DNA from: a virus
IMG/VR virus record: IMGVR_UViG_3300035073_000063
Span: 1-26,886 of that record
Reading direction: 5' to 3' (one strand)
DNA: 26,886 nt
Of the stretch, positions 21,037 to 26,795 are shown piece by piece. The notes beneath the pieces were generated by a model, which saw only the letters and a program-made list of their open reading frames with translations, did not search any database and was not told the origin of the DNA. A program made the position numbers and the translations under genes. Every line of letters starts with the position of its first letter. Positions within the stretch are counted from its first letter, which is position 1.

Positions 21037-21666
21037 TCATGATTGGAGGCAAAGCTTCGCTTCGCGCGCAGATCGGCCTGCGCGGTGCTTGGACATCGAC
21101 TTGATCGGAGGCCGGCGGCCTTGCTCCACAAGCTCGATGTGCCCGACCTCGATAACCAAGGGCGTCGGGCCGCCGAAGATCGACACAAGAATACGCACAC
21201 TGCCCGCCTTGATGTCAATATCCTGAACTGATGCACGAAAGCCGGAGAATGGCCCCTCGGTCACACGCACGGTGTCGCCCGGCGCAAACCGCGCTACCTC
21301 TTCGGCAGACGGCCGAGGCAGCTTCGCTCGCCGATAGAAGGCAATCAGATCATCAGGCACGGGGGACGGCGGCTCCTGCGATCCTGGCCGCAGGAAGTCG
21401 ACCACATGACGCATATCGGCGACTGTCCGCAGTAGACTACTGCCCGTCTCGCCGTCGAGGTCGGCGCGCAGGAACACATATCGGCCGAAGCGAGGATATT
21501 TGATCACTCGGCGCGCCAGACGGCCGGACTTGGACAGCCTGTCCCGCGTCGTCGATCTCACCACATGCACGGGCCGCCACGCTTGCAACCGGGCCGCACA
21601 TAGCCGCAGCGCGACATCCTCGTCATGACCCTCGTAAGCCTCGACCACATACCATCGCTCGACCAT
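21037..21666 (-). CDS. NusG/RfaH-type transcription elongation factor (phage-encoded)
   Basis: The protein has 209 residues from ATG 21666, chosen for GGAGGGC just upstream; codons beyond it (to 21912) merely translate the repeat array into GIGGIGG-like sequence. Residues 3-112 form an NGN domain: RWYVVEAYEGHDEDVALRL, KYPRFGRYVFLRADLD, TVADMRHVVDFLR, PVPDDLIAFYRR. Residues 127-180 form a KOW domain: FAPGDTVRVTEGPFSGFRAS and IFGGPTPLVIEVGHIELV. A basic tail follows. NGN domains bind the RNA polymerase clamp and reduce pausing; specialised members such as RfaH are loaded at a DNA element or hairpin. Here the gene directly follows an unusual repeat region and precedes the packaging, head and tail genes, which suggests an antitermination role. 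That link is inference. Confidence 0.92.
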   Translation of the reverse strand: MVERWYVVEAYEGHDEDVALRLCAARLQAWRPVHVVRSTTRDRLSKSGRLARRVIKYPRFGRYVFLRADLDGETGSSLLRTVADMRHVVDFLRPGSQEPPSPVPDDLIAFYRRAKLPRPSAEEVARFAPGDTVRVTEGPFSGFRASVQDIDIKAGSVRILVSIFGGPTPLVIEVGHIELVEQGRRPPIKSMSKHRAGRSAREAKLCLQS

Positions 21667-21758
21667 TTTGCCCTCCACTCGGCCATTATCACACCTATCC
21701 CACTTCCCCTTCCGAGAAAAACAATGTGGGATAACACAAGCAACTGTATTGATTTGGG

Positions 21759-21878
21759 TTATCCCACCTATCCCACCTATCCCACCTGTTTGCCATTCCT
21801 GGCCGGCAGGCATCGCGCTCTTCGCGCACGCACGCATACGCGTGGAAAGAGGTGGGATATGTGGGATAGGTGGGATAA
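21759..21878. repeat. 33-base inverted repeat formed by the two facing triple arrays
   Basis: Arms at 21759-21791 and 21846-21878 match at 31 of 33 positions as reverse complements, with 54 bases between. In the minus-strand transcript this would be a very long stem ahead of the NusG ribosome site. A second perfect 10-bp pair (GTGGGATAAC at 21726-21735 with GTTATCCCAC at 21758-21767) competes for the left arm, so two alternative structures can be drawn. This is suggestive of a switch, but not proof of one. Confidence 0.8.
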
Positions 21879-21908
21879 TGCGTTTAAATTCAATTATATA
21901 TACGCATT
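21876..21908. other. AT-rich island flanked by a 6-bp inverted repeat (candidate unwinding element)
   Basis: Between ATGCGT (21878-21883) and ACGCAT (21902-21907) lies an 18-base stretch with a single G or C. It is the most AT-rich spot noticed in a strongly GC-rich window, and it sits between two repeat groups. Origins often place such an easily melted element next to iterons. On the minus strand it also contains TATAAT, a perfect -10 hexamer, but no convincing -35 is found at the right distance, so a promoter is only possible. Confidence 0.5.
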
Positions 21909-21951
21909 CCACTTCCCTGCAGCTCGCTCCAGATGTGGGATAGGTGGGATA

Positions 21952-23565
21952 TCAGAGACCGGGTTCGTCCTCCGCTTCCTCGCCCTTCGCCGGCTCGGCG
22001 TCGATGTCCTCCCCCCAATCGTAGGGCTGACCGATCTGCGCCTCGAAAGCGGCGCGGCACTCGGCCAGAGATGGAAACACCAAGCACCAGACCTGCTTGC
22101 GAACGACATTCATTCGTCCATCCTCGAGAACCTCGATATCCTCCGTCGCTTTCACGCGCTCGATCCCTGGCACGAGCTTACGCAAACGCCGGCCGAACTC
22201 GGTTTCCGCTGCCTTCCTGCGCACACCGATACGCTCGGTCGATCGCAAGTAATCGTTGAACAAGGTCACTGTCGGGATCCGCTTTCGCCAGCCACTGGCG
22301 CGATGTGTCTGCGTCCCGTCCTCGAGCCGGGCGAGAAACCATGCGTTTATCGGATCGAGCGAGCGGATTTTCTGATCGAGCAGCGCCTCGGTGCGCGGCA
22401 CCAATCGCAAGTTCGGCGCGCCCGGCGCGTCGAGATCGAAATCGAGTAGATCTGCGAGCAACGCCTCGAGCCCACCATTTTCGAGCTCGGCCCACATTTC
22501 ACGGAAATAACCGTGATTTTCCTTGACGCCGTCGCCGACGTCGAACACGGCGAACCGCCGCTCGTCCAATCCGGCCGGCACCACCCATTCATTGTTGGAC
22601 GTGAAGATCAATCGCACATAATTCTTGACTGCAATCGCATCGATCCCTTTCGCCTCGATCATCTGCGTCGCGGAGGTGATGAGGCCTTTCAATCGACCTT
22701 CGATCTCCTTATTTCCCGCCCACACACCCTCGTCGATCTGCAACAGCGTGCAGGTCGCCATATGCGTGTTGAACTGGCCGGTCACATAACGCTGATCGTC
22801 GACCAGGAAGTAATGCGGCGCGATCAAGCGGCCGATGACGTCGCCGAACGTGCTTTTACCGACGCCGAACCGCCCGCGCAGCACAATCGCAGTGCCAATA
22901 CGCTCGCGCGGTCGCTGGATGAGATGAGCCATCCACGCCCATATCCACGCGAAATGCATGGTGCGGACGGACGCGACATTGTTCAGCAGATGGTCCCGGA
23001 AAATCTTATAACGTTTCCATCGCTCCCCGGCGGGCGTTGTGCGATCGGGCGCGAGGGCGAGCCCCCGATAGAGATTGAGATAGCCGTCGACGCCGGCGAC
23101 TCCGTCGGGATTCGGCCAGAACTCGACCCCGTCGAACGTACGGCGATCTTTGTGCTGCAGCCAATAGTCCGCAGCCTTCTTATAGGAGGTGGTCCATTTA
23201 TAGGAGCCATCCTCCTGTCTTCGTCTCACGCGGACTTTCACGAAGCGATTGGCGAGCAATATGCTGAAGGCCTGGACCGTCAGAATGCGTTGGCGATTTT
23301 CGATCGGTTTTGATGGCTGCTCACGGAAGACGCGCATGCCGGTCCCGAGCGAAACGAGAGAAAACTCGGCATTGAGCGCTTCGATCGGATCGAAGCCGCT
23401 CTCATCATCATCGCTGTCTTCAGGCGGCGTCTGGGGAGGTTCGTCGGGCGGAGCGCCGCCGCCGCCCCCGCCTGCGGAAGAGGGATCATCCGCGGATTTC
23501 GAGGCCTTCGGAAAGGCGAGGATTTCCGCCGTCTCGATGGCGCGCACGATATCGTCGCCGCTCAT
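21952..23565 (-). CDS. Phage replicative helicase / DUF5906-type ATPase
   Basis: The protein has 537 residues from ATG 23565, overlapping the primase stop (ATGA). Residues 28-58 are a Gly/Pro/Asp linker. The ATPase core begins near 225: LRGRFGVGKSTFGDVIGRL (Walker A, Lys237), TLLQIDEGVWAG (Walker B, Asp278-Glu279), KNYVRLIFTSNNEWVVP (sensor region) and LDERRFAVFDVG (arginine residues 336-337). This is the layout of DUF5906/superfamily-3-like phage and plasmid helicases. The N-terminal part (EFWPNPDGVAGVDGYLNLYR) resembles the region before the helicase in primase-helicases. It would unwind phage DNA together with the primase encoded just upstream. Confidence 0.9.
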   Translation of the reverse strand: MSGDDIVRAIETAEILAFPKASKSADDPSSAGGGGGGAPPDEPPQTPPEDSDDDESGFDPIEALNAEFSLVSLGTGMRVFREQPSKPIENRQRILTVQAFSILLANRFVKVRVRRRQEDGSYKWTTSYKKAADYWLQHKDRRTFDGVEFWPNPDGVAGVDGYLNLYRGLALAPDRTTPAGERWKRYKIFRDHLLNNVASVRTMHFAWIWAWMAHLIQRPRERIGTAIVLRGRFGVGKSTFGDVIGRLIAPHYFLVDDQRYVTGQFNTHMATCTLLQIDEGVWAGNKEIEGRLKGLITSATQMIEAKGIDAIAVKNYVRLIFTSNNEWVVPAGLDERRFAVFDVGDGVKENHGYFREMWAELENGGLEALLADLLDFDLDAPGAPNLRLVPRTEALLDQKIRSLDPINAWFLARLEDGTQTHRASGWRKRIPTVTLFNDYLRSTERIGVRRKAAETEFGRRLRKLVPGIERVKATEDIEVLEDGRMNVVRKQVWCLVFPSLAECRAAFEAQIGQPYDWGEDIDAEPAKGEEAEDEPGL

Positions 23566-24791
23566 GCCGCAGCCCTCTCCATTCGCATATCGTTGAAGTC
23601 GACGCCCGGCCGGCTCATCGCGAGGTGAATCGTCAGCCAGGGACAGGCCGCCGCATAGCGCTTCACCGCGCGCTCGAGCGCGAGGCGCGTCGCGAAGGGC
23701 TCGCTGTCGCCGTCGCCGAGCAGATAGAGATCGGCGACATTTTCCGCGATCGGGATCAGGGGCCAATCGGAGTCGAAATCCGGCTCGGCGCTCGGCACAA
23801 AGACGGGCCGCGGATGCTTGTTCTTGTCCGCCTTGACGAGCGTCGGATGACGCACGCGCCCCTTCGCCTTGCCGCAAAGATTGCCAAGGTCGACCGACGA
23901 TCGGAACTCGGCGAGATGCAGCAAGGGTGAGCCCGCGTCGCGCAGCGCGCAATAGACGGACAGCACGGTCTCGACGCCTTCGCCGATGAACACACGGACA
24001 GGCTTCGCGCCATCGTCGAACCCGTCGCCGAGCGCGAGAAAGATCGAGCCGCCCTTCTTCGATCCCAGCACCTTCTTCACATCGATCGCCTCGCCATCGG
24101 CGTCTCGAATCTCGACCTTCCCCTTCGGCCGCGTGAGATCGATCCAGGTGCGGTGCACGCCTGAGAAGCGCCCGTCCGGCCCTTCGATCGCCGCGACCAT
24201 CGCCGGGCCGCGATGAATGATCGCGCCCCCCGGCCGATTCCAGAGAGGGAGATCCCGCGAAAATCTGAGGCGCGCCCGCGGCGGCAGAGCGACGCCGCGA
24301 AGGGTGAGATAATCCTCGACCAGCGAGACGGCGGCCGGCGCGGCGTCGCGCCAGATGCGATGCGCGCGCTTGCGTTGATCCTCGCGGAACAATGCCGCGA
24401 CGCGCTCATCCTCGACCGCCTTCGCCGCGCGCTTCTCGGCTTCCTCGGCGAGCCGCTTCTCGCGCGCGCGGCGCTCCTCCGCGCTCTCGGCGGCGTCGCG
24501 GTCCGGCGGCGGGCGCCCGGTCACCGCCTCGACGGCGGCGAGGAATTGCGTTCCGTCGACATGCTGCGCCAGCGCGATGGCGTCGCCGCCGAGCCGCGAA
24601 TCGCAGCCTTCGCGACAGCGCCAGACATTCTTGCGGAAATTCACGCGAAAGCGATCTCGCCCGCCGCACGCCGGACATGGCTGACCGATGTCGCCGCCCT
24701 TCAGCTTGATGCCGCGCGAGCGACAGAATGCGGCGACGCTCACGCGCCGCGCATCCTCGATCCATTCGCGCCAGGCTGCATCCGTGCTCAT
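23562..24791 (-). CDS. Zinc-ribbon/Toprim primase-like protein
   Basis: The protein has 409 residues from ATG 24791, overlapping the upstream stop by four bases (ATGA); the longer frame to 24902 lies inside the 68-residue gene. A DnaG-like zinc ribbon is formed by Cys39, Cys42, Cys59 and Cys63 (PCPACGGRDRF, WRCREGC), followed by GGDAIALAQHV. A Glu/Arg-rich helical linker (about 95-150) follows. The C-terminal part has Toprim signatures: VFIGEGVETVLSVYCALRD (acidic Glu of the first motif) and YLLGDGDSEPFATRLALERA (the D-x-D motif), ending PGVDFNDM. It would lay primers for the helicase partner. Confidence 0.92.
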   Translation of the reverse strand: MSTDAAWREWIEDARRVSVAAFCRSRGIKLKGGDIGQPCPACGGRDRFRVNFRKNVWRCREGCDSRLGGDAIALAQHVDGTQFLAAVEAVTGRPPPDRDAAESAEERRAREKRLAEEAEKRAAKAVEDERVAALFREDQRKRAHRIWRDAAPAAVSLVEDYLTLRGVALPPRARLRFSRDLPLWNRPGGAIIHRGPAMVAAIEGPDGRFSGVHRTWIDLTRPKGKVEIRDADGEAIDVKKVLGSKKGGSIFLALGDGFDDGAKPVRVFIGEGVETVLSVYCALRDAGSPLLHLAEFRSSVDLGNLCGKAKGRVRHPTLVKADKNKHPRPVFVPSAEPDFDSDWPLIPIAENVADLYLLGDGDSEPFATRLALERAVKRYAAACPWLTIHLAMSRPGVDFNDMRMERAAA

Positions 24792-24994
24792 CGCCGCGCC
24801 GCCGCCGCGCGCTTCAGTCCGCGCACATAGGAGGCCGCAGCCTCCTCGCCCTCGAGATCGGCGAGCAGCTCGTAATCGGCGACATAGTCCCTCGGCACCC
24901 ATTTCGGAACGTCGACCGGGACGCGCGGCTTAGGCTTGCTGAAATAGCCGGGCCAGCGCTCGCCCGCGCGCGCATGCTTGCGTCTCTCGCTCAT
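24788..24994 (-). CDS. Small unknown protein of the replication operon
   Basis: The protein has 68 residues starting MSERRKHARAGERWPGYF. It is basic at both ends with an acidic middle (DYVADYELLADLEGEEAAAS) and closes YVRGLKRAAAARR. No domain is recognised. It overlaps both neighbours by four bases (ATGA), so it is translated with the TSCPD protein and the primase, and a helper role in replication is plausible. Confidence 0.65.
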   Translation of the reverse strand: MSERRKHARAGERWPGYFSKPKPRVPVDVPKWVPRDYVADYELLADLEGEEAAASYVRGLKRAAAARR

Positions 24995-25506
24995 TGCAGC
25001 TCCCCGATCAGATCGAGCACATGCCCGCCGAGCCCCTGGGGCTTTCCCGTGGCGTCGCGCGTCATGGCGCGGCGCAGCTCCGCGAGCGTCGCGCCATATT
25101 GCAGGGCGAAGCTGAGCGCCATGCCGAGGTCACGCGCATAGAAATCCGTCTGATTGTCCAGCTTGGCGCCGTTGAGGAAAATCTCGCCGATGCGGCCGCC
25201 ATCCGGTCTCGATCCATCAGGATATCGGCCGATCGTCGCGACGAAGCCCATTCCCTCATATTTGAAATCGAAAACCTCGCCGGCGCGCCTTTGCGGCAAG
25301 ACCGCGCGCTGCGCCGACAAGCGCAGGATGATCGCGGCGGAGATCGACATGTAGAGCCGCGCGCATGCGGCTTGTTCCCTGCTGTACACCTCGACGCTCC
25401 ACCCATCATCCAACAGGCACCTGCGGAATCGCTCGATCTCCGCCTCGGAGATCTCGGCGCCGTCGCGCAGCAGCTGCGACAGAAGATCGATTTCCTCGCG
25501 CTTCAT
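24991..25506 (-). CDS. TSCPD-domain protein (ribonucleotide-reductase-associated fold)
   Basis: The protein has 171 residues starting MKREEIDLLSQLLRDG; start and stop overlap neighbours by ATGA. Residues about 79-168 match the TSCPD pattern: GFVATIGRYPDGSRPDGG, RIGEIFLNGAKLDN, YARDLGMALSFALQYG, LAELRRAMTRDATGKPQGLG. TSCPD domains are found at the C-terminus of B12-dependent ribonucleotide reductases and as free-standing proteins in alphaproteobacterial phages; the free form has no established function. A link to nucleotide supply for phage replication is suggested only by family and operon. The N-terminal part is helical with no known fold. Confidence 0.8.
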   Translation of the reverse strand: MKREEIDLLSQLLRDGAEISEAEIERFRRCLLDDGWSVEVYSREQAACARLYMSISAAIILRLSAQRAVLPQRRAGEVFDFKYEGMGFVATIGRYPDGSRPDGGRIGEIFLNGAKLDNQTDFYARDLGMALSFALQYGATLAELRRAMTRDATGKPQGLGGHVLDLIGELQ

Positions 25507-25703
25507 CCGAGCAGCTTCCTATGTGCTGCGCACGCCCACTGCATCGCCTCGAGCCGGCGTGGGTCGCCATAGCCGAATGGAGCCGGCCACATACCGCAGA
25601 AGGCGCAGGTCTTTGCCTTCAGCAGCTCGCGTGCGTCCTTGGCGGGGGAGGGGGCCTTCGCCGGTTTCGGCGGCGGGGCGAGGCCATCGAAGAGGTCAGC
25701 CAC
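25503..25703 (-). CDS. Cys/His zinc-binding-like mini-protein
   Basis: The protein has 66 residues from GTG 25703, chosen for GGAGGG nine bases upstream; this start overlaps the GcrA stop (GTGGCTGA). A longer in-frame ATG at 25742 lies in the GcrA gene. After a Pro/Ala/Lys linker it has KTCAFCGMWPAPFGYGDPRR, then QWACAAHRKLLG: C-x-x-C plus C-x-x-H, a likely single zinc ion. It is similar in size to small phage zinc-finger proteins. The role is unknown. Confidence 0.65.
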   Translation of the reverse strand: MADLFDGLAPPPKPAKAPSPAKDARELLKAKTCAFCGMWPAPFGYGDPRRLEAMQWACAAHRKLLG

Positions 25704-26259
25704 GTCTAGCGCCCTCCTTGGGCCTATAGACGATCTCGGCATGCGCGCGGCACCAGGAGCGCCCTTCGAGCGCCGGCTCGCCGCAAAAGCTCACCCCCCC
25801 TTGCCGCGTGTCGCCGAAGGGAAAGCGGCAATCGCCCTCGCGCAGCTGGAAAACGCTCTTACGCCCGAGCGGAACACGGACCTCATAGATCGTCTCGCCG
25901 CCGCGCCGGATGAGGCGCGGCTCGTAAAGGGCGGGATCGACCGCCTCCGGCGGCGAGATGCGGCGCCGAGCATCATCATCATGATGATCTTGATGATGAT
26001 GCTCGGCCGGGGCGTCCGCCCCGAACGGCGTGGCGGCGACCGGATCGGCGGGAGCCGCGCGCTTCGTCGACACCCGTTCTCGTGCTTTTCGCCTCGACCT
26101 CTCACGCTCCGGAAAGACCTGGCCGGCCTTTCGCGCCCGGTCCAGCAGGCCAGCGGCCGAGCCGCGCGATATGCCGACCTTCCGCGCGATTTCGCTATAG
26201 GCCCACCCGGCCCGCCGCAGAGCATAGACCTGCTCGATCAGCGATGCGCTCAAGGCCAT
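25696..26259 (-). CDS. GcrA-family cell-cycle regulator homologue
   Basis: The protein has 187 residues from ATG 26259 (MALSASLIEQVYALRR). Residues 5-45 look like the GcrA N-terminal HTH (GWAYSEIARKVGISRGSAAG). The C-terminus has the GcrA zinc-like end: DCRFPFGDTRQGGVSFCG, EGRSWCRAHAEIVYRP, with Cys144, Cys159, Cys170 and His173. GcrA in Caulobacter acts with sigma-70 at promoters with methylated GANTC sites. A phage copy might redirect polymerase or tie phage timing to the host cycle. Between the parts is a basic linker with a His/Asp cluster (EHHHQDHHDDD), absent from ordinary GcrA as far as I know. The start overlaps the 52-residue ORF by ten bases. Confidence 0.85.
   Translation of the reverse strand: MALSASLIEQVYALRRAGWAYSEIARKVGISRGSAAGLLDRARKAGQVFPERERSRRKARERVSTKRAAPADPVAATPFGADAPAEHHHQDHHDDDARRRISPPEAVDPALYEPRLIRRGGETIYEVRVPLGRKSVFQLREGDCRFPFGDTRQGGVSFCGEPALEGRSWCRAHAEIVYRPKEGARRG
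25965..26007. repeat. 17-bp perfect inverted repeat inside the GcrA-like gene
   Basis: Arms at 25965-25981 and 25991-26007 (GCCGAGCATCATCATCA and its complement) enclose nine bases. They encode the His/Asp cluster, so the repeat partly follows from His and Asp codons (CAT, GAT). The GCCGAG/CTCGGC ends extend it beyond that codon bias. It could form a strong hairpin in mRNA. Confidence 0.7.
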
Positions 26260-26408
26260 TGCCGCACCCGTGATTCGCAATAGAGCGCGGCGCGGTCGAG
26301 GAGACTCGACAGAGCCAAAAGCGGCCAGCAAATCCAGCGGGAGACGAACAGCAGAGCGTCGCGCCCGAAAGCGGTGAGCCAGGCGAGGCGCAGATAGACG
26401 GCGCGCAT
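26250..26408 (-). CDS. 52-residue hydrophobic mini-protein
   Basis: ATG 26408 follows the HTH gene stop by three bases and has GGAG eight bases upstream. The product is MRAVYLRLAWLTAFGRD, then a hydrophobic stretch (ALLFVSRWICWPLLALSSLL) and a short charged end. It reads like a single membrane segment with a positive N-terminus. It is missed by common length cutoffs. The good ribosome site and ten-base overlap with the GcrA start argue that it is translated. The function is unknown; small membrane proteins of this kind in early phage operons may act in exclusion. Confidence 0.5.
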   Translation of the reverse strand: MRAVYLRLAWLTAFGRDALLFVSRWICWPLLALSSLLDRAALYCESRVRQWP

Positions 26409-26411
26409 GGA

Positions 26412-26795
26412 TCATCTCCGCTTGCCGTCGACATCGTCGATGCCGCATTTCGCCCGCAGCTCGGCGACGCCCTCCTCATAGCGCTGTCGCCGTTCGGCGA
26501 GCGCGGCCAGCTGCAGGCTCTCGGGCGCATCCGATCCCATCACCGCGACCAGGAATTCGGCGCGATAGGTGCGCGTCAGGGCCAGGAAATTATCGAAGCT
26601 CGGCCCCGAGCGATGGTTGAGCATCTTGCGCGCCGCCGCCGGCGACATCACGCCCGTCTCGGCGGCGATCGCCTCGCTCGTCTTGGTGGGATGACGCTTG
26701 CGCAGATAGGCGACCAGCCTGTCGCGCGCGTCATCGACGCAACCGCGCTCCCCATTTTGGAACTGCGGTTTCATATTCGGCGACGAAAGTTTCAT
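26412..26795 (-). CDS. HTH-like DNA-binding protein
   Basis: The protein has 127 residues from ATG 26795 (MKLSSPNMKPQF), chosen because GGAGGATCGC is just upstream; earlier ATGs at 26864 and elsewhere have no such site. Residues about 25-80 suggest an HTH: RLVAYLRKRHPTKTSEAIAA, ETGVMSPAAARKMLNHR, SGPSFDNFLALTRTY. The end is a helical charged stretch (ALAERRQRYEEGVAELRA). It could be an early regulator or a helper of replication. It is first in the operon, directly after the regulatory-looking sequence at the right edge. Confidence 0.65.
   Translation of the reverse strand: MKLSSPNMKPQFQNGERGCVDDARDRLVAYLRKRHPTKTSEAIAAETGVMSPAAARKMLNHRSGPSFDNFLALTRTYRAEFLVAVMGSDAPESLQLAALAERRQRYEEGVAELRAKCGIDDVDGKRR

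Follow-up and report, generated by a model that had tools for sequence, protein, structure and literature searches.

The gap between the DUF5906 helicase gene and the NusG-like gene of this phage is very probably its replication origin, in which mirror-image sets of short iterons would act as docking sites for the phage's own helicase. The window, the whole stretch of 26,886 bases that was analysed, is an IMG/VR virus record. PICIs are satellites that lack structural and packaging genes of their own. The window encodes terminase, portal and protease and is the genome of a tailed phage; since TerS, TerL, portal and head protease are all present (TerS called by Pfam/PHROGs, the other three read from open reading frames), the element is a phage and not a PICI. 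The layout of sites beside related helicases, the origin of the satellite EcCICFT073 and the way the iteron word tracks the helicase C-terminus together argue that a full tailed phage carries a helicase-read origin of the PICI/SaPI type.

The octamer TATCCCAC occurs in ten exact copies on both strands, every one of them inside 21696-21951, against 0.19 expected from shuffles, and the remaining 26.6 kb of the window hold four matches at up to one mismatch. Two extra sites, with one and two mismatches, lie where mirror symmetry asks for them (Table 1) and bring the array to 12 sites of 8-9 bp, six in each of two mirror-image halves. In the orientation of the helicase gene, the layout is (>>)(<)(>>>) core (<<<)(>)(<<); on the plus strand the groups follow in the order 2, 1, 3, 3, (1 degenerate), 2, with a step of 9 bp inside groups and about 37 bp between the inverted single and its triple. 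A preliminary description had reported ten perfect copies and one near copy, which is confirmed and to which the copy with two mismatches is now added. It was also right that the array fills the 285-base gap (exactly the intergenic interval from helicase stop to NusG-like start, both genes on the minus strand) and that the 9-base period and both orientations are real. Its groups of 2, 1, 3, 3 and 2 stand, but the degenerate single was missed; its 'roughly mirror' symmetry exists, but is too loose a term for the long-range order given above.

The AT-rich island noticed earlier is likewise real (73% AT); it lies off-centre in the helicase-side half, and the core is 64% GC (36% AT). Across 55 phage arrays, AT content is 45% in cores and 53% in spacers, compared with 39% in genes. 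No DnaA boxes (TTATCCACA, one mismatch allowed) were found in the gap. GC skew, proposed as a check on where replication starts, goes at the array from weakly positive values to negative ones, which in a window this short weakly supports an origin. Further from the gap, the phage encodes a GcrA-like cell-cycle regulator (25696-26448, minus strand; PF07750, 8.5e-16) and an open reading frame with weak TSCPD similarity (24991-25506, minus strand), for which L077, L081 and L131 have a counterpart upstream of their helicase.

Table 1. Features of the iteron array and adjoining genes (positions in the window)
Feature	Position	Strand	Remarks
Predicted replication origin, whole gap	21667-21951	.	Matching position in relatives, plasmids and EcCICFT073
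Outer iteron pair, far half	21687-21703	+	TATCACAC (21687-21694, 1 mismatch) and TATCCCAC (21696-21703), 9 bp apart
Far-half single inverted iteron	21726-21733	-	
Far-half triple iteron	21760-21785	+	9-bp period
Core separating both triples	21786-21851	.	66 bp
Alternating purine-pyrimidine tract	21823-21844	.	22 nt, uninterrupted, Z-DNA-prone; 7 bp off helicase-side triple
Helicase-side triple iteron	21852-21877	-	9-bp period
AT-rich spacer	21878-21904	.	Candidate melting element
Helicase-side single inverted iteron	21905-21912	+	Degenerate CATTCCAC, 2 mismatches; predicted from conserved geometry
Helicase-side outer iteron pair	21935-21951	-	End adjoins helicase stop codon
NusG/KOW-type antiterminator gene	21037-21666	-	Downstream; array does not require it
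DUF5906 (D5/NrS-1-like) helicase, predicted self-loading initiator	21952-23571	-	Pfam PF19263 2.4e-22; Foldseek 6k9c 5e-18, 7ola 9e-10; start near 23571 is an estimate, open frame extends to 23952
Predicted C-terminal winged-helix domain, predicted iteron reader	22021-22290	-	About residues 401-490 of 512-aa model
Predicted recognition helix	22174-22206	-	Residues 429-439; E429 and T430 among top covarying residues
Toprim primase, helicase's partner	23562-24902	-	DUF7146, PHROG 510 DNA primase

A helicase profile search recovered 80 loci from viruses and 73 from bacterial genomes, the closest helicases by sequence being those of Rhodoblastus and Bradyrhizobium; prophages L131 (Rhodoblastus acidophilus) and L132 (Bradyrhizobium) are among the bearers of the array. 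Helicase relatives of 30-55% identity show the same layout just 3' of their own stop codon, written in other words (TGTCCAACC, TGCCCCACC, TGTCATAGGT and others). Within 500 bp past the helicase stop, an octamer repeated at least four times is present at 89 of 157 loci, as against 51 of 2416 control windows drawn from those same loci; about 43% of loci fall under this exact-repeat cut-off, and some of these hold degenerate arrays, for example L051. The preliminary description had suggested looking for the octamer near DUF5906 helicases of related phages. As an array word, TATCCCAC was found at none of roughly 150 such loci, which gave scattered matches only, but the array itself is there with another word. 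Words vary between phages and are near constant inside one array, with a shared frame of TGTCC and about four variable bases. A single-protein scan of IMG/VR and a blastn search of the gap against phages gave no match.

What is kept is the geometry: steps of 9 bp, the order 2-1-3|3-1-2, an inverted single about 35 bp past the triple, an outer pair lying some 73-83 bp away from the core-side site and a core with a median of 89 bp. The two-way array with its 9-base period had been thought unusual for an origin; it is instead how origins of a large helicase-read family are normally laid out. One array, at L079, has 16 sites of the word CACCACCT, ten of them on one side, and does not fit a scheme of six plus six.

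Among cultured phages, Moraxella Mcat1 carries the array, and Vibrio VP2 and Alteromonas ZP6 lack it. The helicase relatives in the YuA/CN2 and VP2/ZP6 groups (L047, L049, L213, L217) are all without the array and have their own DNA polymerase A adjoining the helicase, as if this type of origin had been lost or replaced in CN2, YuA, VP2 and ZP6. Because these polymerase-bearing groups lack it, array and helicase are separable, a point against the origin reading. In two further cultured phages, DLP4 (L212, 3826-4455) and AAT-1 (L050, 5326-5815), degenerate TTAGAT-type repeats, partly in 9-bp steps, lie between helicase and TerS.

An experimentally tested counterpart is found in EcCICFT073, whose rep-ori segment replicates a plasmid in E. 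coli; this replication is lost when rep is deleted, and deleting ori causes a significant reduction, with a lower colony yield (PMC6092414). The 289 bp past its Pri-Rep gene read >> < >>> | << > <<, with the word TGTCTACC, and are followed by a gene for a single-strand-binding protein. Pri-Rep has D5_N and DUF5906 domains, the latter (PF19263) being common to Pri-Rep and the window helicase. PICI origins (SaPI, Gram-negative EcCICFT073; PMC6092414) resemble the window in their place directly 3' of a primase-helicase gene, in their two opposed sets of short iterons and in a DUF5906/D5 initiator. They differ in that the single site of EcCICFT073 stands 22 bp off the triple, as opposed to about 37 bp in the window, and in that a short AT-rich centre separates the PICI sets, whereas the window has a larger, GC-rich core with an alternating tract.

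The array also accompanies DUF5906 helicases on small plasmids without annotated terminase, at L204 and L207 (9-10 kb) and L206 (7.6 kb). Bearers include plasmids of Roseomonas (9.7 kb), Vibrio (pMP1, 7.6 kb) and Citrobacter (9.3 kb, with a less regular array), and larger E. coli and Citrobacter plasmids likewise carry it (plasmid loci L204, L206, L207, L209 and L210). The small array-bearing plasmids are possibly satellites in plasmid form. As natural replicons they point the same way as EcCICFT073, to what may be autonomous replication with the helicase.

These plasmids bear on two other readings of the gap. Like origins, centromeres also hold iteron arrays with spacing rules, and some array bearers are plasmids, which might indicate a partition site of a plasmid-like prophage. 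We consider this extremely unlikely, as the constant neighbour of the array is a replicative helicase, and no ParA/ParB-type gene lies beside it in the window or on the small plasmids (E. coli L209 has a MipZ-like ATPase elsewhere). A packaging start (cosB/pac) recognised by the small terminase would suit the HNH, TerS and TerL genes that come after the array in the window, the NusG-HNH-TerS-TerL order of L051 and the TerS of DLP4. L051 is the sole locus with the gene order of the window; its array follows the layout of the window too, in degenerate sites that resemble GCCCTACC. A cos or pac site would keep company with a terminase, however, and the array occurs on small plasmids without an annotated one; in EcCICFT073 the gene that comes next is that for the single-strand-binding protein, and the word tracks the C-terminal domain of the helicase. 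Packaging is accordingly an improbable role for the gap. NusG, HNH and TerS homologues were undetected in most array-bearing loci, a search that distant families could escape.

The case for a helicase-read origin draws further on the relationship between words and proteins. Arrays tend to differ more in their iterons the more distant their helicases are, and the word follows the C-terminal domain of the helicase, not its ATPase: with ATPase distance held fixed, C-terminal distance correlates with iteron distance (partial r 0.20, reached in 0/300 permutations; phylogeny is not fully corrected), while the ATPase given the C-terminus yields a partial r of 0.05 (55/300 permutations). The strongest single-residue associations, by mutual-information tests uncorrected for tree structure, are those of residues 448, 429 and 430, all in the C-terminal domain, with word positions 6, 7 and 8 in the variable half. 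In the AF2 model of the helicase (pLDDT 89.9) the C-terminus forms a winged-helix-like arrangement of helix-helix-strand-strand-helix, in which residues 429-430 open a putative recognition helix and 448 lies within the first wing strand. A fold search with the isolated domain returned a replication terminator protein on DNA as its best match and also listed RFX5 and ORC/Cdc6, with E values of 0.03 at best and none significant. The likely binder of the iterons is the helicase itself, rather than the HTH or NusG protein, and it would read its sites through the C-terminal winged helix.

The same tracking bears on a possible operator array through which an HTH or GcrA-like transcription regulator of the phage would control the late operon. 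HTH-like and GcrA-like genes do lie upstream, and the array is intergenic. Against this, no sigma-70-like promoter was found in the gap in a scan confined to that promoter type, the word tracks the helicase, and the layout is kept on plasmids with different gene content; an operator is thus very improbable. The position and geometry of the array in relatives, the terminase-free plasmids, the tested EcCICFT073 origin and the covariation of the C-terminus all back the suggestion, made in the preliminary description, of a phage origin beside primase and helicase genes.

By Foldseek, the whole helicase matches the helicase region of the NrS-1 polymerase and SaPI5 PriRep1. The polymerase of the deep-sea phage NrS-1 (PDB 6k9c, 6lrb; PMC7102993) is the best structural match; it is phage-encoded and has a short recognition sequence of 8 nt, but Prim-Pol and helicase are fused in it and the NrS-1 genome contains the 8-nt site twice, whereas in the window the toprim primase is encoded separately and the sites number twelve. 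SaPI5 PriRep1 (PDB 7ola, 7om0, 7pds) and SCCmec Cch2 (PMC7581432) share with the window a D5-type hexameric helicase and a downstream origin. The match to PriRep1 is only a remote structural one (12-14% identity, E about 1e-9), and the Cch2 origin has three iterons compared with twelve sites in the window; for Cch2, the C-terminal domain has been shown to bind the iterons (PMC7581432). More broadly, repeated initiator sites link the window to the iteron plasmid origins of RK2, P1 and R6K and to lambda O. In those origins, direct repeats of about 17-22 bp are read by a non-helicase Rep or O protein. The alpha protein of P4, with its ori/crr, is a primase-helicase that reads short iterons. A comparison with P4 appears in PMC6092414.

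The core itself has a recurrent feature. Among 43 arrays whose helicases are <70% identical, 58% of cores contain a tract of 12 nt or more in which purines and pyrimidines alternate without a break, in contrast to 1.8% of cores after shuffling and 2.3% of controls taken from the flanks. The tract lies nearer the helicase-side triple in 21 of 25 cases (p 0.0009), at a median distance of 10 bp (IQR 8-14). Runs reach 49 nt, compared with 22 nt in the window, and occur in the cores of relatives including L141, L181, L096 and L102; their steps are mostly CG/GC, also CA/TG and some TA. By eye, EcCICFT073 and the inspected plasmid arrays are without such a tract, and the literature searched yielded no relevant work on Z-DNA at phage origins. 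We tentatively suggest, as a possibility that is open to considerable doubt, that the tract has a function in the origin, absorbing negative twist by a flip to Z-DNA or by melting as two hexamers pull on the core, and that its off-centre place makes the origin functionally one-sided.

The inverted triples could alternatively form an RNA hairpin in the helicase-NusG transcript, which would serve the NusG-like protein encoded next as an attenuator or antitermination site. The minus strand does fold at -127 kcal/mol, compared with -89 kcal/mol for shuffles (z -7.3), but any inverted iteron set folds. The complementarity of spacers between halves is 0.475, against 0.441 for unrelated pairs; the same-strand direct copies have no role in a stem; most array-bearing loci have no detected NusG homologue, and an Rfam scan of the gap gave no match. 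An RNA element is therefore highly unlikely.

A similar mirrored grammar is found in the Prim-Pol phages L020, L025, L030 and L031, with the word of the window (TATCCCACC) and alternating runs of 20-29 nt; in L025 and L031 one array mixes TATCCCACC with TGCCCACC. Prim-Pol gave no hit in the window helicase or its neighbour, where a toprim primase is found instead. Common ancestry of the Prim-Pol helicases with that of the window was considered and set aside, as BLASTP detects no relationship between them (L030 tested). The common grammar suggests a shared solution or exchange.

In the origin model that these comparisons favour, the C-terminal winged helix of the helicase would read the sites, with the wing and the first residues of the recognition helix at least partly setting the choice of bases. 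Each six-site half may seat one hexamer, in which case two head-to-head hexamers would assemble around the core, although the hexamer count per half is so far numerology. DNA might open in the AT-rich spacers or in the alternating core, which is flexible; priming would fall to the toprim primase encoded next to the helicase, and forks would depart both ways. Each phage would keep a private pair of word and reader, and such pairs would prevent cross-talk between replication modules.

If functional, the alternating tract would be a new kind of origin element, conserved as a propensity of DNA shape and not as sequence. According to the authors who tested EcCICFT073, only PICIs have this origin organisation (PMC6092414); the present comparison would make it a common replicon type of tailed phages and small plasmids as well, with a bearing on the source of the satellites' replicon. 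Dozens of natural pairs of word and helicase in one geometry would make origin finding and opening by a hexameric helicase testable, and offer a specificity code to decode.
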